Source: Cystobasidium ongulense (Eukaryota; Basidiomycota; Cystobasidiomycetes; Cystobasidiales; Cystobasidiaceae). Taken from it: a stretch of DNA of 64,000 nt. This document shows positions 14,812 through 56,024 of the stretch, piece by piece. Under the pieces are notes generated by a model that worked only from the letters and a program-made list of their open reading frames with translations, ran no database searches and was not told where the DNA came from. Each line of letters opens with the position of its first letter. The first letter of the stretch is position 1. The position numbers and the translations under genes were made by a program. The DNA lies in contig BQUP01000010.1 of assembly GCA_022835595.1 (NCBI GenBank), positions 140,236 through 204,235 of the forward strand, given 5' to 3'.

Positions 14812-15405
14812 CTATGCAGCTTTAACAGCTTGAATGGCTAACTTTAGCGCAGCAACTGCGAAAGCTACCATATTGCTGGATCGATCCGCAGAGCCAGTCT
14901 CGATTTCTTCAGTTATGGTCTCATGCTGTGGAGATGCCACCGCGAGAGCACAATAGCCAGGTGTGCGATTTCGAGTTGTTCCACCAGTAGGACCAGCTGT
15001 TCCGCTCTCGCAAACGCAATAGTCTGCCTTGAGCTGCTGCAGGACATTTCCAGCAAGGAAACTGACTACCTCTGGAGTAGGTCCCTTGTAATTCTTAGTA
15101 TGCTCCTCGGTCCAGCCAGCGAAGGTTATTCGGCTCGGTAGGGTATATAGCGTCAAACCGCCAGCGTAGATCTTGCTTGCTCCGGGACAGGATAGTATAG
15201 AAGCGGATACCAAACCGCCAGCAGCCTATAGTACGAAGCGATGTTGCGAATGGTAACATCTGTAAGCTATGTATAATTTCAATCATCAGGCCATGCTGAT
15301 AACAAAGCACACCGTTTCGGCCACGCAGATCGTCTGGCTTCGAGCCTTCAGTAGATCCACCAGTTCCTGCGCGGCTTCTTGTAAATCTGATGGCAAGAAG
15401 CTCAT
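14812..15405 (-). CDS. CinA C-terminal-domain protein (PncC-like), catalytic motif altered
   Basis: Two exons: 15405-15313 and 15225-14812, 168 aa. The protein is a stand-alone CinA C-terminal domain. In bacteria this fold is the nicotinamide-nucleotide amidase PncC, which recycles NMN to nicotinate mononucleotide. The N-terminal helix (SDLQEAAQELVDLLKARSQT), then the glycine-rich AAGGLVSASIL, GASKIYAGGLTLYTLPSR, and the CESGTAGPTGGT loop are in family order and spacing. In bacterial enzymes the first loop reads AESCTGG with the nucleophilic Ser. Here the splice joins VAET to AAGG, so that Ser is absent. The protein may therefore be a divergent fungal subfamily with another activity or none. 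The start ATG at 15405 lies 201 bp from the divergent REV1 start. Confidence 0.82.
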
Positions 15406-31237: not shown

Positions 31238-34200
31238 TTACGCACACCTCACAATGAGCTCTCCATCGTCGTCATCTTCATCATCGCTGAAATCGATCAA
31301 GAGCGCTGCCTTCGCCTTTGGTCCCGCGTCCGTTTGGACAGGTGGAAGTGTGGCGTTGACCATCGGAGAACACTCAATCAGGCCAGGCTTTCGTGCGTAA
31401 TCAAGGTCTATCAAATTTTCAGTAGCGTCCAGCAGGGAAAGCATGTCTGGTTTTGAAAGTTGCGACGCATGCAGCTTGAAGTGCATGTTTTCCAGGTCCG
31501 GACTTAGTCCGGTGCGGCGGTCGTCAAGTCGGGCTCCAGGGGACTCCTCTGTAACCTCAACACTGCTCTCGGTCGCACTGGTCGAATCGTCCTCGTATAC
31601 TCCTTCCTTACCTTCTGCTGTTTGCGCCTCCGGGTTGTAGCCATAGCTGTCCAACATTATTCGCTCGAGTCTTGCCTCCAACGCCTCACTATCCCTTTCT
31701 ACAGCTTCTTCCTGATCATCAGCAATATCCTGTGATGTTGCTGACTTTACATTAGCGGTCTTCAGTTGAGGCAGATCAAGGAATGGATCTAAGCTTCGAT
31801 CCAAATCGTCAGGCTTCTTGAGCATGCCTAATGCTTTAAGCTGCGCATCAAATTCCTTCTTCCATTCTCGAACGGGTGCGAGATGTTCTTTAAGCTCATC
31901 TCTGCAAGTGCAGACGCTATCGATATAGGTATCGCCTCCTGCTCGAAGCTTTTCCAGACCGAGTTTACTTGCAAGCTGTTTCGCCGAAGCAGACGAATGG
32001 TGAGAAACCCGCGAGAGCTGCTGGTCATGCCAGGTAATCGTGATTACAGCGGGAAAGTGCACGTCGGGCCGAGGGGAGGATCTGCAGCGCAGAGAATGGT
32101 AGTGTCAACGAAATCCAATGATTGCCTTTTGAGGCATCAGAAGAGACTGAAGAGACGTACTTTATTTCCAGATGGGTGCAGCTTCTCTGTTGGAGATACA
32201 GGCGGAGCCGCGATGTCGGATCTCTGGGAGCCGACTCCTTGTGCGGAAGAAGCTTGAACATGTCCTCGAAGACACGATCTAGTACCTCAAAGACTGGCTC
32301 GATCTTCCAACCGCAATCAACGAAAATACTGCCAATGATACCTTCCAACGCATCTGCAGCTGGTTTGGGTGGGTCAAACAGCCAGACTTCCTCAACAAAA
32401 TTACTGTGGATGAGCTGCTCTGCTTCCGCTAGAGCTCGTTTGAAATGTTCGCCGAGCAATGGTGTAGCATGCATGATGTACTTGTGCAACTTCAGGAATT
32501 TGAGTGCTAAGTAACCGAGTGCCGAGTTGCTGACGAGGGTTGCGCGAAGTCGAGTGAGGTGAGAGGGTGTAGCTGTGGGAAATCTTCGACTAAGGCGGTC
32601 GATGACAAAGTTATCGAGAACGGCTGTGGGTGACAATATTCAGCAGATTACGTGTTGTCCAAAGAGAGGGAGAAGTCTCACCATCTCCTAGGAATTCTTC
32701 GCGCTCCTGACAGTGTGTGGAACCACCAACAAAACTTCGATGTGTTAAAGCTTGCATCAACAACTGACCATGCTTGAATTGATAGCCCAACATCTTCTCG
32801 AGCTGTACCAAGTTTGGTCCAACGGGAGCTTCGAGTACGTCTTTGGTAAGAGCGTAACGCTCGTGCCACGGATCAGGCCCTCCAAAGCAGAGACCGAGAG
32901 CACTTCCTGTCTCCAGAACAGCTTCGAAACCTCCAGAGAGATAAGCAGCACCCAAGAGTGCTTCCGTACAATCCGAAAGAGCACGGCGAGGAATGCTCTT
33001 CTTGATAGTGAGGCCATCGGAAGAGAGTGTTCCGTTCTCGAGGGTGGGAGCGACCCAGGTGCGCATTCGGAAGAAATCGGTAAAAAGATGTTGATGAAGG
33101 TTGAGCTTGAGAGCTCTCAGTCGGAGGTGCTGATTGTCGATCGAATTCATCCTTCTTGCAGATAGACCGCCTTCATCTTTGGACTGGTAACGATTATACA
33201 CCAACACAGTTACACAAAGCTTGAGAGCAGAATCGCCAATGGTTTCGAGAGTCTGGTAATCCTTGCCGGTGCAACATAGAGGTAGAGTCAGTGCTCTGAA
33301 GGTGTGTCAGCTAAACTCATAAGCGGGTAGGTGATCTACATACTGTCTAACCAGAGGGAACTGTAGGGTGGGAAGACGAAGTTCTTGCATAGCTCGCTGT
33401 ACACGTGCCTGGTCATGGATAGCCCTCATAAGGGATGGCATCCAGCTCCAGGCGTTCCAAACACCGATTCCAATGTTCGAGATTTTGCATAGAGACCATG
33501 GGAGTACGAAGGCGTTCGTTACATCTGTCTTCGTAGCTGTTGTCTCGCCAGCAGACAGAGGCTGTAGATCTACGATGTCGTTTTCCGGGTCAAGCATGTC
33601 CATAGCGTCTTCATCGACTTCATGCTGCTTTGTTTGATACTTCCTCCACTTCCAGTCTGGAATCTCCCACGGAGCGAGCGGGATGTCAGCATCTGCATCG
33701 ATCTCGTCGTCCTGCTGGGCATTTACGTCGGGTTCTCCTGCTCGACTCGCAAGTGGGGCAGTTGCGGCCTTGTAGCCGTCATTCTTTGCTTTAATTGGAT
33801 TCAAGTTGTTCCTGACCTTGAACCAAGGCTTTAGGTGTAGCATTTCCTCCTTGCGATCCAGTCCAGTAAGGTCGATGTTCTCGTAATCGAGGAGAGCAAT
33901 AAGAGCATCGCCAAAAGTATTCGTACGTTCGAAAATACGGCCACGTTTTGTGAGGCCAGTGATGCGGGGCATATTGTCCGAATTGAGATCTTTGCGGATC
34001 TCGTGAACAGTGAAGATGTGTTTTCGCATAAACTGCCAAGGCGCGATGACCAAATTACCTGGAGAAAGTTGTTCTAGATTTGAGACAGGGCTGTATGGAT
34101 TATTTACAGCCCACCAATCGATGTCCCAATGACCTCTGCTTGCTTCCCTGAGCGGGGCGAACATGTAGAGTAGGGGACCAGTGATGAGCTTTCGATTGAT

Positions 34201-36926
34201 GACTTGCTTGATAATCCATCTTGAAAGCTTATCTAGCTTCTCCATCTTTTCCTTGCGATCTTCAGCAGGCCACGATAGTCGTCTTATCGATTTGACGCGG
34301 ACTTCGAACTGCATTCCAGGCTCGTGCATGATAAGAGGTCCTTCCAGATCCAATCTCTCTCCACAAATGAGACCGAAACGTTCAATTTTACCATCCTGAA
34401 AATCGACTTTCACTTCGTTGAGCCAGATAGTGGGGTTGAAGCTAGCCCACATGTTGCCAAAAACGTTTGGTTGGTCGACTTCGATATGAAGATCAAGAGG
34501 GGTGCGATCTACAGGCTCATCGTCTGCGTCTCTTGCGTAGTCGCCTTTTCCTTCTCTCATCGGCAATAGGTGTGAGTCAAGTATACCGTGCTCGTAAAGA
34601 ACCTTGCAAGCTTCAAAAGCTGCAGCTTGTTTGGCTCCTTTCTTGGTAGGCGTTTCTGGTCCTTGAATTTCTCTGCAATCTATGGGAAGAGCGGGCATCA
34701 TGGGAAGGAAAACTTTGCAGTGATGGATTTTTCCGACATCGAAGCGCTCCCAGCGTGGTTTAGAAGATGGAGAGTACGCGTCCGTTGGTAGGAGGGCACA
34801 TGCCTCGCTTAAAAGTGCAATAGCGCTGAAGTACGTGAGTACAGCACCAGTCTCGGGGACGATGAAACGAGGTGTATTCTCCAGCTCCGGTTCTTCAGCA
34901 ATGTCTTCTGGTTGCCGCTCGGCTTCAAGTTTCTGAAACTTTTCTTCTCCTGCCATCTTTTGCTGCAGTCTGAGGTACTGATCAGTATCACGCTCAATCA
35001 TAACTACAAATTCCGAATCCTTCTTTCTTGCTCGGCCTCGGCTTTGAATGTACCCTTTATAGGTGGTGATGACGTCAAATCGTATGATGAGGTTGCAAGC
35101 TTGAAAATCTAATCCTTCTTCAGCTACCTGAGTAGCACATAAAAGATTAAGCTCTCCAGTTCTAAATTGAGCGACCGTTTTTTGTTGCTTGTGAGAAGAA
35201 GGAGGGAGCAAGTTAGCCCAGTAATACATGTGGATTCAGCAGAGTAAGAGACAACTCACGAGCTTGGCAACCATGCCTTCACTGTTAAGACGCTCCTCTC
35301 CAGTCGAGCCGTGTCCAACCAGATACGCAGGTCGAACAAACGATTGCAAAGACTGTGATTTTGCTAGGATTGTGGCCAAGGCTTGAGCGTGGTGTCGTTG
35401 CTCTACAAAGATAATGCAGTGGAAGCCTTGCTTGTTCTTGTAGCCGAGCAAAAGCCTGACTAGCTCCCTGACTTTCTCGGAGACGTGGCCAAGGCCATAA
35501 TAAGGGAGACGTTCGACAATCGTCTTCATTTGAGCGTGAACTCTCTCAATATCTGGAATGCGGCCAGATCCTCTGATAGCGAGAAGAGAACTGTTAGTGG
35601 CGACCGGATCCCTTAGGGAGTAGAGCCAATGCATGATGTAAATGTCGCAGGCGAGGGTTCCCAATGTCTTCAGTATCGATAGCACCACTTCAGCTTCATT
35701 TCCGCCGGCGAGGGGGAATAGCTGCGTGACTTACCGACTTGACATTCTCGATTCTATTCCTCACTTTATCTTCATTGACATATTCCCAGATTTCAAGATC
35801 CTCCAACATGAGCTCGAACTCCGTCTCGAATTGAGCGTCGTAGTCTTTTGTGTAAAATACTTTCCTCTCAATTGGCTTCTTGAAGTAGGAAGCAGCTTCG
35901 GTCGCTGTCTCTCTGGCTGTGATGATGATAGAATCTAAACTCGCTTCAAGTGCAGCAAACTTTTCTTGTGCGTCCTTTAGATTGAACACTGGTGAAGCAG
36001 TGAGACCTAATATTTGCGGTCGGTGCAAGTGCGGGTGTGCTTCCTTATGGAGGTGATATTCTTCCATGATGAGCTTGTAGGGATGCTTCTTCTGGCAGTG
36101 ATGGCACTCATCCTGTAAGCGAATGGCGATCAGCCCGGAAGCGAGTTTGCTAGGCAGCACTAGGATATTCAAGGTCTTACGAAGATCATCAAGGTGACCT
36201 ATTTAGAAGAGGAAGCGGATTGTTTTAGCCAGCGAACTTTGTTGTTGAAGAAAAGCGGACGAAATAGGAGGCCTCACATTTTCAATCGGCCAATAGGCGT
36301 GATATAGAACTGACCGCCATATCTCAGCCGTCATGACTACGCAGTCTGAAGCCTGAAATTCTTCGATCCATTTGTCTCTCATCCAGAAGTCAACGTCTAG
36401 ACGAAATCGTGAGGCGAAGTGAGGCGTACGGATATCAGCAAATGAATGTAAGTGCTAAAAGAGAGGTACCCACTCATATCCCCTCTGTAACCTCTGACTC
36501 GGAGTGAAGTGTTATTGGCGATATGTTCAGATTGTTGGTCGACTAGTGCGACAGTCGGAACGAGAAACACTGTAATCTTATGCTCGTCCGTTTCTCTTGG
36601 CAGTGAGTTTATCCATCGCATGAGCATTACCTAATGGAAGGAATGAGGTCGAAGGTCTAGCTTGAGTACTGGTAGTGGCGAAACTAGTTGATAGGCACAG
36701 AGCCAACTCACAGCAATAAAAGTCTTTCCCATCCCTGTATCCAAGCGGATGATAGCATTCCTTTTTTGACATATCTGCAGTATTTCAGATTGGTACGCTC
36801 TTGGACTGGAAGTGAGTGAATCGAGCAAGCATCAGCGTGAGGTCTTCCACTTGGGGCGCCGTATCGGTGTCTGACATACGTCTGCAGCAACGAGACGGTC
36901 AGCATGGACTCCAACGGTGGCTTCAT
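31238..36926 (-). CDS. DCL1: Dicer-like ribonuclease III
   Basis: Cuts long dsRNA into siRNAs for RNA interference. Eleven exons: 36926-36880, 36805-36712, 36630-36474, 36396-36278, 36198-36181 (18 nt), 36112-35735, 35667-35260, 35187-33344, 33295-32682, 32623-32161 and 32081-31238, 1661 aa. Helicase motifs: Walker A LDTGMGKT (37-44), DECHH (146-150), LTAS (182-185) and QSRGRAR (455-461). A dimerisation domain and a long middle region follow, in which a PAZ domain is expected but not clearly readable. RNase IIIa has LETIGDSAL and DCTEALLGA; RNase IIIb has EEFLGDAVLD and DALEGIIGS, so the acidic catalytic residues of both are present. A dsRNA-binding remnant (TITWHDQQLSR, AKQLASKLGLEKL) precedes an acidic tail (DFSDDEDDDDGE). 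The start at 36926 is chosen because it alone gives the right phase into exon 2 (LLQTPRAYQSEIL). Least certain junction: the 35734-35668 intron. Confidence 0.94.
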
Positions 36927-45761: not shown

Positions 45762-47602
45762 CTACAACAAACTGTCATACACGGCCTTCTCCGCGGCTCT
45801 GTAAGGATCTAGAGTATGAGAGTCATAGAAGGGAAAGTACTGCGACATAATCACGTTCACTAGGCCCTTCTCGCGATCTGCCATCCAGTAGAGATTGCCG
45901 AGGCCTGCCCACCTATCAAGGAACAAGGCAGCACGCATTAGCTTCAGACCAGAACACCAGTCTGCGACTCGAACCTACCAAACACTGTTTGCACTCCGGC
46001 CGCTGCACAATGAAGCCAATTTTCAGCTCTTTACTGGCTACTTTGACGGAAAATATTCACCTTGGCAATGGATCCTTCGTCAGCATGCCAGCGAATGACC
46101 ATCCTTTCTCGATTCCTGGCAGACTGCGAGCGAAACGGGTCAACTACCTGCCGAGACTTAAGTCATTGGCGGCACTTACGGGACCACTGGGTTAGTGAGC
46201 TGTGGTATCACAGCAGGGATTGTTTGTTCCAGTGCTTTGTTTGTTCCAGCTGGCGTGCCGGCTAACTGATCCCGGAACATTTCGTCTACCGTCTTAGGCT
46301 CAAGCACACTCACGCCATTCTGGCCCTTCCCTTCGTTTATAAGAACGAAGAGTATCTTGATGTAGCTTGACGAGGCAGATACAACAGGTGAGTCTGGAAA
46401 TCCCTTTGCTGCAGATACCGACTCACTCTTCGGCTGTAATTATGCATCCGGCGCCTCCAGAGTGAAACGTTCCTTGTACGAAACCAGGTTGATGATCTGT
46501 GTCGCCTGCCTCAATACTCTGAAATTTGTCAGCGAAGGGAAAATATAACATACCTATTCTGATGAGGTTTCCTTCCGGAAGTCTCAGATGCATTGATGCG
46601 AGACGGTTTTCGCATTGCGTCGGCACCTATACAAGCGAAGGAAAGCGGTGTGTAAGTCCTCGCTTATTTAAATGCATAACCTTACCAGCCAGCTCACCCT
46701 GTTGAATTGTATATCTTTGCAGCCCAGTGGATCGAAAATATGATCTTTGCAGTACTCGCCTAGTGTCTGACCAGACACTCTCTCGACAAGTTTGCCAGCC
46801 CAGTCCATGCTGATGCCGTAATTCCAGTCTTCACCGGGTTGAGCGATTAAGGCTTGGTTGAATGTTTCCCACTTCGCAGAGTCGAATGGCTGATTTGCCG
46901 TCGTCCAATCATTTATTTTTTGGTTGAAGAACTTGATGAACAGGTTGCTCTTCAGCAATACTCTTGCCTTCGTCAGAACACATTCGAAAGCACTTACGGT
47001 GTAGGCGTAGCCAGCGGTATGTGACATCTACTTGGACCAACGGGAGATTGCCAATTGCGAGGAAACGCGTCGTAAGCTTGGGGCGGTAAATGGGGGGCAA
47101 GCGAGCGAGATACACAGACTGACTAGCATTCTTAAAGTTATTTTACGCTTTGGCGTACTTCCGTCAACCATTTTGACGTCTGCAAGCTCGCTGAGGAACA
47201 CGTCTACTGGCGCGTCGAGCTCAACTTTCCCTTGCTCGACCAATTGTCTGTATACAGCGAGAAGTCAAAAACGATTGCTTGTACCATGAGGAAAACCTGA
47301 TACTTACAAACAGGCGATAGCTGTTATAAGCTATATTAGGAAAGAGGTCAGTCATGGCATTGTTCAGCCAGAGTGGACAAAATGTGCGGACAGACCTTTG
47401 TGCAGGAGAAGCCCACAAAAGCTGTATCAGTTGTCATCTTTTGATCCTTCTTGTCGAGCCCTTGAACGCCAGCAGCGGCTTTGACCAGATAGTCTCCATT
47501 GCGATCCATCATCACGAAGACCGCACCAGGCAGCGCCTCCGGGTCGGCGCAGGCGGTATCAAGGATGGCCTGCACATCGTACTGAGCTTTCGAAGAGCCC
47601 AT
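45762..47602 (-). CDS. Beta-lactamase-fold serine hydrolase, copy A
   Basis: Eleven exons: 47602-47396, 47330-47308, 47247-47124, 47027-46998, 46931-46698, 46626-46554, 46496-46427, 46365-46180, 46123-46061, 46002-45979 and 45912-45762, 394 aa. It belongs to the class C beta-lactamase / EstB esterase family. The nucleophile motif is SCTK (SxxK), the Tyr motif is in GEDWNYGISMDWAG, and the third motif is HSGGAG. Other family marks are KITLRMLMSHTAGYAYT, FDPLGCKDIQF and a C-terminal WWAGLGNLYWMADREKG. There is no signal peptide, so it is probably cytosolic. Members hydrolyse esters, lactones or amides; the substrate is not predictable. A near-complete paralogue, in opposite orientation, lies at 51352-53291 with every intron at the same place. 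ATG 47602 is used; another in-frame ATG 57 nt upstream would add 19 residues. Confidence 0.9.
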
Positions 47603-48135
47603 GCTAAGAGTACCTGTTGAGCGGTGGGCAAGGTCAGAGACGGGAAGGGCAAGCGGCATCTCGTGGGCCGGCAGCGCCACTGCGCCCCACCCATCGATCC
47701 CATCGGCATGTGTGTCACGTGTCTTTTAACCGGGATGTGAAAGGCGCTTCACGGCAGATTGAGGCAGTCATTGTGGACGTAGGTGAATTGCTTTGCATAG
47801 CTACTGTGGCTCAGCCAAGTACGCTTGAGTCGCGCTAGGCGGCCGAGAAAAGCAGGGTTCGTCAAAAACCTAAAGTCTAACACAATAAACCACATTGATC
47901 CAACTGACTCCCATGATCTAATAACCTGAGCGACTACTCTTTGAATCTACCCTCTACTTCGGTAGAATGAACCTTTTGATTGGTATTGGACGAGATTTTG
48001 CGAGACTTGCTGACTGATTAGGTGCGTGTAGGCAGCGTAAAAAAAGGTGAAAAAGCTGAAACGAAAGAGACTAAGATATGGCTACATGACTGATTTTTCG
48101 AACTTCATTATTTATAATTGTTTCAAGATATCAAG
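47603..48135. other. Intergenic region between hydrolase A and LPMO B
   Basis: 533 bp, upstream of hydrolase A and downstream of the LPMO. No gene seen. A short A-run occurs near 48040. Confidence 0.4.
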
Positions 48136-50111
48136 TCATGAGTGATGGCTGAGCCTTCGGGGTCCATGTCTTCTAGTCTTGTTCGATTTCTTGTCTGCGA
48201 CACCGATTTTTCCATCTACGCATTGCGTACCGGGTGCTACTAAGCCCATATTGATCAAGGCACCGTCTGCGGTACACATCGAGAAGCTATTTCCGTCTTT
48301 AGAGCATACCATTGCTCCAGGTGAACATGGTTCCGGAGAACTTGATGAGACTCCAATTTTTCCATTCTTGCATACTGTTCCAGGTGCTACGAGACCCATG
48401 GAGATCCATTGACCACTACCACAGAGATAGAAAGATCCACCATCTTCTGAGCATTTGATACCAGTACCAGTGCACATCGTATTGTCAGGTAGAGTAGGCG
48501 TTTCAATAGCCGCCGGGGATGAAGTTGTTTTCGTCTTTGAATTACCCCGGCCACTTGAAAGGTTGACCACAGAAGAGATAGTGGGTTTCACGGTGGCAGC
48601 TTCGGAAGATACTGTCGCTGAAGACGAAGCTGCTCCACCGCGACCTGGCTTCAATGACACCTTCGTGCTTGTCGTTTCGGGTCGCTTGACTGGCTCTTGA
48701 GTAGTAGAAGATGAGGTAGGTTCAGGAGTCTTGACAGGTGCTGAAATGATTGGCTCAGGTGTATATTCATTTTCACCTCCGCCATTGCCATTATCAGGAG
48801 CCGCGCCAGTGTTCGAAACCAAGGTAACAAGCTTGTTGATATTCATTTGGTCATTGGTGCATCCTGCAGTCTTGAGTGCGTTTTGACCTGGCTTCTGACC
48901 TGCCCACATACCGCCATAAACTACCGAATCACCAGGATTTGGGAAGACGATTTCGTCACCCTGTGATATCGAGAGCCCGTATTAGCCTTTGGTGTTCTCG
49001 AATGGCTATGCACCCGTTCAATGTAGGAGAAGGGCTTATCCGTACCTCAACAGTATGGCACGTGCCAGCGAAAGTATTTGCTCGGAAGATTGAAGGAAGC
49101 TTGATTGATGACGTAGAAGATGATTCGATATCGACTGCTGCACAATTCATGTACATTTCACGATTGCCAACTCTGTTAAGTTCGGAGGAGGCATGTCAGT
49201 TGCTTCATGGGGTGGGCTTATTCCGCTCGCACAATAACTGCTTACTTGTTAAACCACTTTTTAAGGCAAGATATGCTAAAGTCAGTCATTTGCTTTCAAC
49301 TGATGGAAACTCGGGCATGTTTTCCACTTACTGTCCACGCCAGGAGGACATTCTTTCCAGCGGGTACATTCGCAGGAATCTGTATGTATGGCAATCATAG
49401 TGCGCCATGAGTAAAGAAGGGGGAAAGGGGAGGTTACTTGTGTATATCAACTCACCTTGAAGGAGTATTTCTTTTCGATTGGGCAACCGCCAATAACAGA
49501 ATGCACGACGCCAAAGGAATTTCCGCCGTCACTGCAGTTGAGAGGAGAAACAAGAATACCAGATTAAAACTATTACTTCTGGTATATACGCAGGATGTGT
49601 AGGAATGCACTCACTAGGACAGAGAAAATTGACACGATCCTCCTCCATGAACAGCTGACCCATCGAGGGTGACTTCATATTGCTGTCCTGCTTTTATTGT
49701 TTCTACAGCATGACTTTTCCCAGGAACATCTTGCTGATATCCTTTGCAAGCGAAATTTCTGGGTGGGAAGAGAATTCGAAGAGCAAGCGAAAGCAAGTAC
49801 ACATGTTAGTCGATATACTCTACTCGCTTTGAACGACATGCACCAAAGGGAAGACAGCGACCAAAGCGCGCTCTTTGTCTTTCGATACGAGTGCAAGCAA
49901 GCGAGACTTACGAGCCATCTTCGAGGAGCGGAGCAGTCATGGAGTAGTCGTATCCAGACCAGTCGTATTGTGGGTTGTTTTCGCCTCTCAAAGGCGCAGG
50001 ATGTGTGAGTCTTATGTGTGCGTTGACTGGGCTAGGTCCCTCTGCCAGCATGATGAAGAGACCCAGTGAGCTGGCCAGCAGCGAAGTGAGCGTTGAGCGT
50101 TGTGGTGACAT
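48136..50111 (-). CDS. AA11-type lytic polysaccharide monooxygenase, copy B, two C-terminal modules
   Basis: Copper enzyme family that oxidatively cuts chitin. Seven exons: 50111-49912, 49758-49615, 49531-49456, 49379-49332, 49256-49246 (11 nt), 49172-49046 and 48960-48136, 476 aa. A signal peptide ends at PVNA, so the mature protein would begin with the copper-brace histidine HIRLTHPAP. The second histidine is in [14 protein letters not shown], and the axial tyrosine in [27 protein letters not shown] and WFNKVGNRE also match AA11 enzymes. A Ser/Thr/Pro-rich linker (about 275-370) leads to two similar cysteine modules ([11 protein letters not shown]...[15 protein letters not shown] and [11 protein letters not shown]...[15 protein letters not shown]), like the X278-type modules attached to AA11 enzymes. 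The tail is basic ([12 protein letters not shown]). Secreted; acts on chitin or the cell wall (inference from family). Confidence 0.92.
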
Positions 50112-51351
50112 GACTGCCTGAGCGTGGTTATCTAGCAAAATCGATAGACTGGCTATGCGCTGCTGTCCGGCCTGTTCCTGTCGTGATGTTCCTGCGGGCA
50201 ATACAAAGAGTGTGTGGCGTGTGTAGGGAAGTACAGAGCAGGGTGATAGGGAAGGGTGGTGAAGGAAGAGCCAGGAAGTGGAGTGAAGTAGACAAGCACG
50301 AATGAACTGTTCGTATCAGGTGGGCTGGTCAGAACGAGACAAGAGGATGAACAGACTTACCTGACTCTGTCGAACAAATTGACCTGGCTTTGGTTGTAGG
50401 ATCCGCAAAACTGAAGAACCCGGTTATGCAGCGACAGTCGACGAACGAGTGTCTGAGTTGGACCAGACAACTGTTGCTCGACAAGGTAGCTAGAGCAGTG
50501 CAGAGCAGAGCAGAGAAGCGTCTTGCTCGGCCTTCTCGTATCTTGAAAACGAATTAATGCGAAGAGAGATTTTGATCGGACTCGAAGAAGGAAGTTAAAT
50601 GAAAAGAAGATGGAAGGGGAAAAGAGAGAGAAAAGGCCAGAGGCGGTGATGGAAAGAATGCTGCTCCTGGGCTTGCTTTGCTTGCTCGAGCTGTCCACTG
50701 AAGAAAAGCGTCAAGGCGTCCTGCTGTCATGTCGATGCAGATGTGATGTGGTTGCCATGGCCAAAGCGCCTCGTCTGGCAGCATCTTCCAGACAAAAGCC
50801 AGTCTTTGTGTTCTGATGTGCGGAACAGGAACCACCCTTGAAGTTTCTGAAGAGATTAGAGCCAAATCACTCTTTAGGATGCGCTTGACACGACTTCGCC
50901 TCGTTCGTTGCAAAGTGTCCTCCGCAATGGTGTCCAATCACGTGACTTGAAAGGACCCAGACAATCTGAATCAACCTTTCCAAATCTCAATCATAGTGAT
51001 TTGTTCGGACCTGCATGTCTTTGAAGCTAAACAGGTACAGCTTCACAGTGAAATTGTCTAAAACTACGTCGAGCAAGTCCTGCTGACCCACAACGACCTT
51101 CAAAGCAGATCTTGAGAAGACCGCGGATGAGGCTTCCGGCGGTTGGAGACACTCACGCGGGCCGGCCAACAAAGGCACTTCCTTCAATGTACGAACAAGC
51201 TTATTTCGTCTCCACTATCTTCGTATTTTGAATAGCGGAGCCTTTTCACATCCTTCTCCTTTCTTCTTGACCAACCCAAAGCACATACTTCTCCATCTTG
51301 ACATCCGGTGCCCCAGCTTTTTCAATCCTTGCACCCCACACGATACAACTT
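50112..51351. other. Divergent spacer between the two hydrolase/LPMO pairs
   Basis: 1240 bp between the start codons of LPMO B (-) and hydrolase A' (+), so it carries both promoters. It is the longest gene-free spacer in this half of the window. Long minus-strand frames (around 50357-50937) have no ATG start in frame and no domain and lie over CT-rich sequence that is probably the LPMO 5' region. I saw no inverted-repeat arms that would mark the duplication junction. Confidence 0.5.
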
Positions 51352-53291
51352 ATGGCGCCAACCACGGGCAGCTCGGCAGACGCATTATCCGAAAGCATTG
51401 ATCGTGCACACTTGGACACGAACAAGTCCAGCAACAAGGTACAAGAACAAGTACAAAAGATATTAGATGATGCATGTGCAGAAGAGAATGCTGTGCCCGG
51501 TTTGGTGTTCGGAATGATGGATCGCAAGGGTAATTATCTAGCTAAAGCTGCAGCTGGTGTGAGAGGATTGAATAGGAAGGATGAGAAGATGACTACAGAT
51601 ACTGCTTTCGCTATTTACTCATGCACAAAGGTGTGTCTTCGCATACAGTTTCGGCCTCTATAACGCTGAAATGGCTGACCTCCTTGGCCTCACTATCTTA
51701 TACATAGATGCTTGCAGGTATCGCTTTGATGTAAGTTTTACTACCTTTGACACGCATTGATCTGCGTGAATGATGATACTGATGAGACGGACACTCAGGC
51801 AACTAGTTGAACAAGGCAAAGTCAAGCTTGACGATCCAGTCGAGAATGTTCTTCCTGAGATTAAGGAAGTTCGAATGGTAGATGGCAGCGAACCAAAGAA
51901 CAAGATTACCCTTCGAATGCTTGTGAGTTGTTGCTGTCTTGTACCTTATGTGAAGGTGGAATACCTTTCAGCAGAGAATTAACGAAAGGTTTGGTTCTGG
52001 CGCGCGGTAGCTCTCCCATACTGCCGGATTCAGTTATACCGTGAGTTAAGTCCAGCACAACGTGCCAGATCTTTATATCCGAACAAAACAGACATTGAAA
52101 GTGTTCTCGTAGTTCTTCAGCCAAGACATCAAAGATTGGGCTGAGAAGAACGGTCTAGATGAATTCGAACCAGGAACTTTTGATGCTTATAAGCAGCCTT
52201 TGATAGCCCAACCAGGTGAAGACTGGAACTATGGTGTTAATATAGATTGGGCTGGTAAAGTCTTGGAGAAGATTACTGGTAAATCACTGGGAGAATATAG
52301 CAAGGATAATATATTCGACCCCCTCGGTTGCAAGGACATTCAGTATAGTAGGGTAAGTACACTTTCCCTCACACGGACATCGAATGGACCTTTTAAAGCA
52401 TCATCTTTGAACTTCTAGCTCGCACCTCAATGCAAGGACCGATTCGTCTCCATGCATCAGCGCCACTCAGATGGCACTATTGAGCAGAGAGGTGAGTATT
52501 TGAAGTCACTATACTAGCTTAGCTCTGCTAATCTGGAGAGTAAAAACAGATCACATGCCATTCACGACTAAGGGATCCTTCGACTCTGGCGGTGCAGGAT
52601 GCCTCGGTACCCTCGAAGAGTAAGCGTTTCTGGCCAGATGCTCGCCAAGTCGATAAAAACTGAAATCCACTTGGATTTTCAGTTACCTCAAGTGCATCTA
52701 TATTATGATCAACGAAGGCAAAGGCGCCAATGGAGCTCAAATTCTGAAGCCTGAAACGGTCGATGAGATGTGGCAGGACCAGCTTGCTGGAAAACAGCCA
52801 GAGAAGATTAATGCTCTTGGACGAGACATCCCTGCCGTTAGACCAGACCTCACCAATGTGGTCAAGCCGTAAGTTCCGACCTATTGGCCTGATTGTAAAG
52901 ACATTTCGCTGAAGATCTGGACTCCTCAGACTTCCTTTCACTACCGCTGGCTGGGCAATCACCGCCCAGCTTACCCACGATGCCTGGCCAACGTGAGATT
53001 GGATTCATTGCAAGTTCAGAAGTATGACAGCTGATCCGATGATCTTTGCATGCGTAGCGGCCGAAGCCCCCGCAGCATTTGGTAAGTCTTTGGTACTGAC
53101 CGTTGAGCGCACACAGCCAGCTAAGGCTACTACATTGCAGGTGGGCTGGTCTACCGAATCTGTTTTGGATGGCAGACCGAGAGAAGGGAGTCGTCAATAT
53201 GGTCCTGTCTCAGGTCGTTCCATTCAATGATCCCAAGACTCTCACGCCCTGGCTCGCTGCTGAGAAAGTCGTCTATGACAGCTTGGCTTGA
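51352..53291 (+). CDS. Beta-lactamase-fold serine hydrolase, copy A'
   Basis: Paralogue of the hydrolase at 45762-47602, in the opposite orientation. Eleven exons: 51352-51630, 51708-51730, 51799-51922, 52011-52040, 52113-52352, 52419-52491, 52550-52619, 52683-52868, 52930-52992, 53058-53081 and 53141-53291, 420 aa. Exons 2, 3, 4 and 6-11 have exactly the lengths of copy A (23, 124, 30, 73, 70, 186, 63, 24, 151). Exon 5 is six bases longer, and exon 1 is longer owing to a hydrophilic N-terminus (MAPTTGSSADALSESID). Active-site motifs SCTK, WNYGVNIDWAG and DSGGAG are present; the third motif starts with Asp where copy A has His. There is no signal peptide. Both copies look functional. Confidence 0.92.
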
Positions 53292-54332
53292 AATTGAAGT
53301 CTCTGACTTGTCTGTGAAGCTGTAAGCGTACATACTGGATTGAAACTGCCCTTCATGGGTCAAAGCCAAATCTTGTAATAGTGAATTGTCCAAGTTGTTC
53401 CATCTCCGGCGGAGCATGGCCCAATGCCATGCAAAGTGATTTTACTCTCTCCTTCCGACTACTCGTGTGCTATAATTTATAGAAGGGCATTTGGCTGTTT
53501 CAAAGTCTCCCACACGCCATACAGTCGTCAGTACAGTAGTGCGAGTGCGAGTGAAGCAAACGTACGCAGGCCCATAGTGCGAGCTGGTTCGACTTCCGAT
53601 CGTCCTGAAGCAACAGCGCAGTAAACAGCAGCATCAGCAGCATCAGCAGGGTACGGGAGATACTAGCATCAAGACACAGACCGACAAGTTTTCTGCAGAG
53701 AGCTGCAACATTTTGAGTGATGTACACGGGTCCAGCGTCTTCCGGGCTGGAGCTGAACGCAGAGCCTCAAGAAATGTGAAAAGTGACAGCAAGCATCGCT
53801 GTCATGTCTGGACTACCGAAGTCCTACATTCAGTCTTTCTGACTTCTCGAGATGCCGAACAGAAGACATTGTTCATTGCTTTCCCAGTGTCTTCAAGATC
53901 ACGAAGCATTGGAATCTATAAATGTCACGGTAACAGCCCTCGGCTGACTTGCGAGAACGATAGCATCGCATGCGACGGTCGTTCTGCCCAGCCACTCCCA
54001 GCCACTGATGCAGAGAAACTATCAGCGGTCATGGCTGCTCTGTTCCTTGGACCTCCTTCAACCCTTCCAGACTTTCTTTCGACACTACACCGACACCTAT
54101 AGGGTCTTCTTAGCTGACTGTAAAGACTGCCACCACACTCGTTACCAGCCAGCCTTCCAATCCTCATCGCTGGCGGTGTCTACGCCCGTTACCTACATCA
54201 CTATATTGTGGCCATACTACCCAAAGCTTAAACAAATCAAGGACGATCATCCTCCGTCCAACGCCTTCCGTTGCCAGCACTATCAAGGATACAGCGTGCA
54301 CACCATTCAGAACGCCTGCAGGACGGGACGGT
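53292..54332. other. Intergenic region between hydrolase A' and LPMO B'
   Basis: 1041 bp, about twice the matching spacer in the left pair. It contains an imperfect CAG/CAT trinucleotide run near 53610-53650. Open frames here (for example 53713-54102) have no domain or splice support. Confidence 0.45.
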
Positions 54333-56024
54333 ATGAGATCAATGCCGCTGGCCGCGCTGGCGGTGCTGCTGCTGCAGTGTACACCCTCGATTTGGGGCCA
54401 TATTTTTATGAGCGAGCCTCCAGCTCTAGGATCGGAGAAAAGCTCTGCTCCTCGCGATTACAGTATTACTAACCCCGTCTCGTCGTTGGGCAAGTAAGTC
54501 TCTATTATTGGATTCTCAGATTATCAGGGATCTGGCAACTGATCACCTATTTTATTTCCGCCTCCCCTCGACTTTATCTGAATATGCTTCCCTCGACTTT
54601 ATCTAAATATCTAATGGTCACCAGAGATGGATTTCCATGCAAGGGAGCGATCAAAACCATGCCTGCCGGCATTACGCGAACGCCTTACAACGCTGGCGAT
54701 GATGTCACTATCACCATGTCTGGGTCAGCTACACATGGAGGCGGTTCCTGCCAGATAGCTCTCTCGTAGTGAGTTGCTAGAGACTTTTCGAGCCAAATAG
54801 GACGTATCGCCGTTACTGAAGTAACATTGCAGTGATGATGGAAAGACTTGGGGAGTGATACACTCATTCATTGGCGGCTGCTTGGCAAGCTCAATGTCTC
54901 TTTCGTTCAAGGTGAGCTGGCATACGCGCAACTTCGTTCACTCACAATAGTGCTGGTGACTGACCTGAAGTTTCCTCAGATACCACCCGCAACGCCAGGC
55001 GGCGAGAATGTTATGCTTTCTTGGAGTGTGAGTCTACGCATTATACGAGGGGTCTACCTTCTAATAACGCGAATTTCTCGTTCAGTGGCTAAACAAAATC
55101 GGAAATCGCGAACTCTATCAGAATTGTGCGCCGATAACGATTGCTTCCAAATCCAAGTCTATGAAGGTCCCGGCTATCTTCAAAGCTAACCTTGGGGATG
55201 GTTGCGCAAGTGTAGAGGTATGACCGCAAGCTACCTCTCACACCAGCGGCCGGAATGCAGACTGAGTACTTTCTACAGGGTGTGGAAAGTGTCTTCCCGA
55301 ATCCTGGCAAGTTCGTCACATACGGAGGTCCCTATGCCGGAACACCTCCATCGCCAGGCGCTGGTCTCGCGGGATGCTCGGATGGGGGAACAGTCACTCT
55401 CAGTTCAAACGGTAGTCCGGCGAAAGCGAAGTCTCCTCCGGCAAACACTTTTTCTAAGCAGAATGCACCTGCAGACACGCCAGAGGACAGTCCGGAGACT
55501 GCCCCTGAGAATACTTCCGAAGCGCCCTTTGCGAACACATCCGAGGATACCGCTGATACAACTACAGCTAATAATGGAAAGATTCGGGTCCAAGGAAAAG
55601 CACGAGTCAAGAAGAAAGGGCCCAAGAACAAGCTTACGGCTGACACTAGAGTCAAGGGATCTGGGAAAGCTAAGTCACCGACATCGCCCCAGGCGAACAC
55701 TGCCGCTCTTGCAAAGGCTCCAGGAGGTTCAGATGACAGCGATGCACAAGCATCTGCTAGTTCCGCCGATTCGTCATCTGCAGATGACTCGGGCGTTACA
55801 GTCTCGGGACCTGTGCAAGCTGGAGGTGCATGCAGCGGAGGTCTCGGGTGTTCCAGCGACGGAAAGTCATTTTTCTTGTGTGGTTCCAGTGGATGGATAT
55901 CAATGGGTAAGCGAGCATGACTGTTTATTTGGAACGTATTAGCTGAAAGCGTGCTTGAACAGGTTCCGTAGCAGCTGGTACCACGTGCAAAAACGGAGCC
56001 ATCGGTCATGCAGGCGCGCGTTAA
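54333..56024 (+). CDS. AA11-type lytic polysaccharide monooxygenase, copy B', one C-terminal module
   Basis: Paralogue of the LPMO at 48136-50111, opposite orientation. Seven exons: 54333-54493, 54625-54768, 54833-54911, 54980-55027, 55086-55217, 55279-55906 and 55963-56024, 417 aa. The signal peptide (MRSMPLAALAVLLLQC) ends before HIFMSEPPALGS, again placing His at the mature N-terminus. The second copper His is in THGGGSCQIALSYDDG and the tyrosine in NRELYQNCAP. VFPNPGKFVTYGG is conserved. The Ala/Pro/Lys-rich linker is basic and longer (about 245-375), and only one cysteine module follows (CSSDGKSFFLCGSSGWISMG, then VAAGTTCKNGAIG). Exons 2 and 4 have the same lengths as in copy B. The intron that creates the 11-nt exon in copy B is absent here. 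Spliced C-terminus: AGAR. Confidence 0.92.

Follow-up and report, generated by a model that had tools for sequence, protein, structure and literature searches.

The four-gene cluster described here lies in a 64,000-nt stretch of contig BQUP01000010.1 of the basidiomycete Cystobasidium ongulense (positions 140,236 to 204,235 of the forward strand), which we call the window, and brings together two enzyme families with described relatives, the AA11 lytic polysaccharide monooxygenases (LPMOs) and the serine hydrolases of the PF00144 family. Among the former, AfAA11A of Aspergillus fumigatus (structure 7P3U) belongs to clade I, consists of a single domain and acts on insoluble chitin according to PMC12186267; its single-domain build is also given in PMC9550227. 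Clade II comprises there AfAA11B and AoAA11, both with an X278 domain, AfAA11B having an extra 95–110 loop and being without a surface tyrosine that is present in AfAA11A (PMC12186267). A three-part layout, with catalytic domain, low-complexity linker and C-terminal module, is reported for AoAA11, AfAA11B and the Neurospora protein CWR-1 (PMC9550227, PMC8453653, PMC12186267), CWR-1 being described as an AA11 enzyme with a linker and an X278 module (PMC9550227). A survey of 2015 recorded AA11 in 36 of 39 ascomycetes versus few of 32 basidiomycetes (two by its abstract, three by its results and four by its discussion; PMC4424831). On the hydrolase side, AcmB is an esterase, and its gene acmB is in the same operon as acmA, which codes for a Baeyer-Villiger monooxygenase (PMC6215540).

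The cluster occupies window positions 45762–56024, where four genes stand in the order A(−) B(−) A′(+) B′(+), A and A′ coding for PF00144 hydrolases and B and B′ for AA11 LPMOs, with intergenic gaps of 476, 1,240 and 1,041 bp. In gene models spliced by hand with GT-AG introns only, each of the four runs uninterrupted from ATG to stop. Span, order and strands (− − + +) all match those of an initial annotation of this DNA, which had also recognised a beta-lactamase-fold hydrolase and an AA11-type LPMO, an assignment borne out by the profile and structure matches given below. The arrangement is real and mildly unusual; the genes themselves belong to known families. The reading that we favour, with some reserve, is that of a small cluster in which a hydrolase gene and an adjacent AA11 LPMO gene were duplicated locally, at the DNA level, long ago. 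On this account the linkage would most likely go back to the ancestral adjacency of the two genes and not to a shared substrate, though the gap between B and A′ may provide some common control.

The two hydrolases have the same build. Gene A (45762–47659, minus strand) has 11 exons and encodes 413 amino acids, with SCTK at residue 85 and Tyr-Gly at 185; gene A′ (51352–53291, plus strand) also has 11 exons and encodes 420 amino acids, with SCTK at 90 and Tyr-Gly at 192, each protein thus having the SxxK pair as well as the Tyr-Gly motif. The PF00144 profile matches both above its cut-off (E 3.3e-49 for A, 7.8e-48 for A′). Among NCBIfam models, that of the methyl acetate hydrolase AcmB came first for both, with matches over nearly the full length that score 279.6 bits for A and 305.4 bits for A′, about half of the 550-bit equivalog cut-off, which neither protein reaches. 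Against solved structures, a search run with A′ found the LovD transesterases as best matches (PDB 4LCL and others, E 2.4e-45), which agree with A′ in the SxxK and Tyr-Gly regions. No signal peptide was seen by eye in A or A′. Both enzymes, with the bacterial AcmB and the fungal transesterase LovD as relatives, probably act within the cell on small esters, which they would cleave through an acyl-enzyme of the SxxK/Tyr type. A cluster of the AcmA/AcmB type was considered for this locus and rejected because there is no FMO-like (flavin-containing monooxygenase) neighbour: none of the 17 FMO-like matches listed for the genome falls in the window, one of them lying on the same contig about 179 kb from the cluster.

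For B and B′ no Pfam model scored above its cut-off. Their matches to solved AA11 LPMOs (7p3u, 9exj and 4mah, with E from 2.5e-59 to 8.8e-24) are led by 7p3u for both (E 2.5e-59 for B, 2.1e-44 for B′), and the sole further chain up to E 1 was a sulfite oxidase, matched by B only (E 0.31). Gene B (48136–50111, minus strand; 7 exons, 476 amino acids) and gene B′ (54333–56024, plus strand; 7 exons, 417 amino acids) encode a leader peptide, an N-terminal histidine of the mature protein, a linker and a cysteine-rich C-terminal part made up of two modules in B and of one in B′, leaders and cleavage points being judged by eye. The residues of the copper site are kept, with His1 at residue 32 in B and 23 in B′, the second histidine at mature position 73 or 69, and the axial tyrosine at mature position 136 or 133 within an NRE-M/L-Y motif. 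We take B and B′ to be secreted copper LPMOs of family AA11 that probably oxidise chitin or chito-oligomers with the aid of their C-terminal modules. In the alignment with 9exj, which we took as AfAA11B from its molecule name, the 95–110 loop of AfAA11B is absent from B and B′, and the tyrosine corresponding to Tyr25 of AfAA11A is kept (mature position 25 in B, 21 in B′), so the catalytic domains look AfAA11A-like; 7p3u is also nearer to them than 4mah or 9exj is. When genome contigs and viral contigs were scanned with the alignment of B and B′, no locus was found in either. One predicted exon of B is only 11 nt long (49246–49256, minus strand), flanked by introns of 75 and 73 bp; it lies where the AA11 domain has its conserved WFNK stretch, and the second of the flanking introns is absent in B′.

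The C-terminal modules are about 40 residues long. The two copies of B lie at 48196–48483 (minus strand) and that of B′ at 55831–56024 (plus strand), where it is split by an intron (55907–55962) that the modules of B do not have; the other two copies are 51 and 61% identical to the first. We call these modules X278-like by their position and their cysteines. CBM_19 gave a sub-threshold profile match in one of the three copies (E 0.43), and the search of solved structures returned no relative, the best match, thrombin (E 1.1), being attributable to chance.

The copies within each pair are much diverged. A and A′ are 58.5% identical (240 of 410 aligned residues) and B and B′ are identical at 160 of 387 aligned residues, in both cases far more than chance would give. 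Their introns occupy the same alignment column and phase in 10 of 10 cases for A/A′ and in 5 of 6 for B/B′, so both pairs would be old copies made at the DNA level and not retrocopies. We searched the genome (19.77 Mb, 19 contigs) exon by exon, which makes the counts lower bounds. Among at least 16 matches listed for A′, 13 fall in the window and three weaker ones elsewhere, two on contig C13 and one on contig C3; for B, all of the at least nine matches listed fall in the window, and a search with the first module gave, up to E 10, no listed match other than the three copies described above. The C13 matches form a distant pair of PF00144 genes (C13:105934–112599), divergent (left −, right +), 37% identical to each other and enclosing a Zn2Cys6/Fungal_trans regulator gene, with no AA11 match beside them among the listed genome matches to B. 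Their proteins are approximate, the exon pieces having been joined without exact splice sites.

Outside the fungus, a search of plasmid proteins with A′ returned 413 records, every one below 60% identity, and four bacterial loci, hand-picked from 25 listed among these records, were read and placed in a tree. In this unrooted tree of A, A′, the four bacterial homologues and the C13 pair (the C3 homologue, known as an open reading frame list only, the locus L034 and LovD were left out), A and A′ split off together with support of 100/100, as do the two approximate C13 sequences. The initial annotation had proposed trees as a check on whether each copy is closest to its local partner, and for the hydrolases that is how the tree came out, A and A′ grouping together apart from the other sampled sequences. 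An annotated flavin adenine dinucleotide (FAD)-dependent oxidoreductase adjoins the A homologue in two of the four bacterial loci (L064, L066) and lies about 4 kb off in a third (L065), which is consistent with the acmA-acmB operon; none was present in the stretch shown of the fourth (L067). An annotated LPMO or AA11 gene was found in none of the four, the gene table being incomplete. Scanning with the A/A′ alignment yielded a single planctomycete locus in genome contigs (29% identity) and none in viral contigs.

Order and strand bear on how the duplication may have proceeded. We enumerated the arrangements of two A and two B genes, weighting all operations equally and allowing up to six genes, so that the counts depend on the operations allowed. 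Of the 52 distinct arrangements, 12 can arise when a block is copied once next to itself, in tandem or inverted, and the observed one is not among these, in agreement with the statement of the initial annotation that a single tandem or inverted duplication cannot give this order. Up to four steps of adjacent duplication alone failed to produce it; with inversion allowed as well, three steps were enough, and with transposition too, two sufficed from each of the four ancestral orders except the convergent pair, which took three. If copies may land anywhere, the order is one step from the divergent pair <A B>, whose inverted copy lands between both genes, and two steps from either same-strand pair, and from the convergent pair it was not reached; two single-gene copies also suffice if one lands one gene away. 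Since a nested inverted copy or two single-gene copies give the order, the gene-by-gene flipping of the second block that the initial annotation had invoked is unnecessary.

The order <A <B A′> B′> would thus go back either to one nested event, in which an inverted copy of the divergent pair landed between its own genes, or to at least two events. The single nested event, giving <A [<B A′>] B′>, with outer A and B′ as the old unit and B-A′ as the insert or the reverse, is treated as an alternative of its own, which we hold with rather low confidence. It is the sole one-step route of the enumeration, and B and A′ are divergent today. However, that route emerged from equally weighted operations on no more than six genes, it may seldom happen that a copy inserts precisely between the two genes it came from, and there is no trace of insertion borders or of intergenic homology. 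The two blocks share weak repeats only, of which the longest, 104 nt with 70% identity, links the last exons of A and A′.

Several observations weigh against an old local duplication retained as simple neighbourhood. The intergenic regions have in common just 11–15-nt matches (best E 0.016), so that the path of events is not directly readable. B is nominally nearer to the Aspergillus LPMO than it is to B′, so B and B′ may not be local duplicates, and an equal age of the A-A′ and B-B′ splits is neither shown nor refuted. Both neighbours have been duplicated and the four copies, though far diverged, are all still open; independent duplications would lead one to expect less coordination. Finally, the gap between B and A′ (50112–51351, 1,240 bp), from which both genes are transcribed outward, may serve the two as a common promoter, and they would then be coupled. 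In favour of the old duplication stands the pair on C13, which is likewise an opposite-strand pair of the same hydrolase family with no AA11 match beside it.

The initial annotation saw in A and B a possible functional pair, its partners kept together through duplication and rearrangement. On such a view, selection would have preserved the co-duplicated pair, as might be the case if an esterase and an LPMO served one process on chitin or the cell wall from a shared promoter. The joint duplication of both neighbours with all four genes open and the outward transcription of B and A′ from a single gap fit this view, as does the fact that the only listed AA11 genes of the genome lie here. We nevertheless regard such a pair as unlikely. 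The absence of a leader by eye in A and A′ versus its presence in B and B′ would put them in different compartments, and the C13 hydrolase pair has no listed AA11 match. Word counts compared with 300 random draws revealed no shared promoter signal in the three intergenic gaps: these have no 9-nt word in common, and their three shared 8-nt words (six with complements) were equalled in 43 of the 300 draws. Nor did we find, judging from listings, a paper describing an association of A with B, which is not proof of its absence in print. If the linkage held across fungi, the hydrolase would become a candidate accessory activity for AA11 LPMOs.

A doubtful alternative is that B and B′ are ancient paralogues that predate the A-A′ duplication and that either were retained side by side or came together by a later relocation. 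In the 156 columns common to all, identity is 57.7% between B and AfAA11A, 51.9% between B and B′ and 50.0% between B′ and AfAA11A, and B joins AfAA11A in the best AA11 tree, at a bootstrap of 52. Against this, all three topologies withstand the approximately unbiased (AU) test (B+B′, p 0.47–0.48; B′+AfAA11A, p 0.12–0.13), five of the six introns are common to B and B′, both proteins bear the same kind of C-terminal module, and only three AA11 chains were sampled. A more elaborate scenario combines several of the elements above: a co-regulated divergent pair <A B> would have placed an inverted copy into its own promoter gap, both units being kept because the secreted, chitin-oxidising LPMO and the intracellular ester hydrolase serve one process of cell-wall or chitin use, with an LPMO made of an AfAA11A-like domain and one or two X278-like modules. 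We consider this conjunction quite improbable. A kinship with the Neurospora cwr-1/cwr-2 allorecognition locus, in which an AA11 LPMO acts as a cell-fusion checkpoint protein, has the CWR-1 layout of B and B′ (AA11, linker, C-terminal module) in its favour but is the least credible of all, since their catalytic domains look AfAA11A-like and not of the AoAA11/AfAA11B type and PF11915 (CWR-2, a protein with eight transmembrane segments) was not found in the genome, although no control genome matched it either; a CWR-type allorecognition locus is unlikely here.

The surroundings of the cluster were scanned for protein families in 16 stretches of the window, most of its other open reading frames lying outside the scan; 14 stretches gave a family, and none a transposon or polyketide-cluster gene. 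To the left of the cluster lie a Sec7/PH gene and a RabGAP-TBC gene, to the right an OB-fold gene, a short-chain dehydrogenase, an amidase and a glycogen debranching enzyme. The G+C content at the locus (0.466–0.514) is inside the range of the window (0.454–0.525). Further left, a Dicer-type gene (32614–35235, minus strand) carries helicase C-terminal, Dicer dimerisation and RNase III domains, so the fungus may keep RNA interference. Also in this chromosome is a CinA-family (competence-damaged protein) domain (PF02464, E 7.6e-28; 14815–15225, minus strand). Elsewhere in the assembly, contigs C4, C5 and C6 carry at their starts telomere-like repeats (CCCTAAA/CCCCTAAA kind) that are irregular, the numbers of A and C varying. 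Among marker genes, an acetyl-CoA synthetase exon has 5ifi, a structure from Cryptococcus neoformans, as its best match (811 bits, against 749 for the next chain), which agrees with a basidiomycete host, whereas a trehalose-phosphate synthase exon of 132 residues placed the Cryptococcus chain 8fhw last of seven and does not lend support. STE3 was found and STE2 was not, with no control genome giving a match for either, and no 5.8S rRNA was found among the 39 of 723 candidates scored.

Compared with the described systems, each half of the cluster combines likeness with difference. AcmB, from Gordonia sp. TY-5 and relatives, provides the best curated family model for A and A′, at scores under its equivalog cut-off. 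A′ resembles LovD in sequence and in its SxxK and Tyr-Gly motifs, but the setting differs from that of LovD, with no polyketide-cluster gene in any of the 16 stretches scanned. B and B′ are like AfAA11A in their catalytic domain, whereas AfAA11A is single-domain and they carry a linker followed by two modules or one. With AoAA11, AfAA11B and CWR-1 they have the three-part layout in common but differ in the catalytic domain, which is nearer to 7p3u. The locus thus adds two AA11 genes in a basidiomycete, a group in which the 2015 survey reported AA11 as rare (PMC4424831), and in these genes AfAA11A-like catalytic domains appear joined to C-terminal modules of a kind that the papers cited here tie to the other type of AA11.

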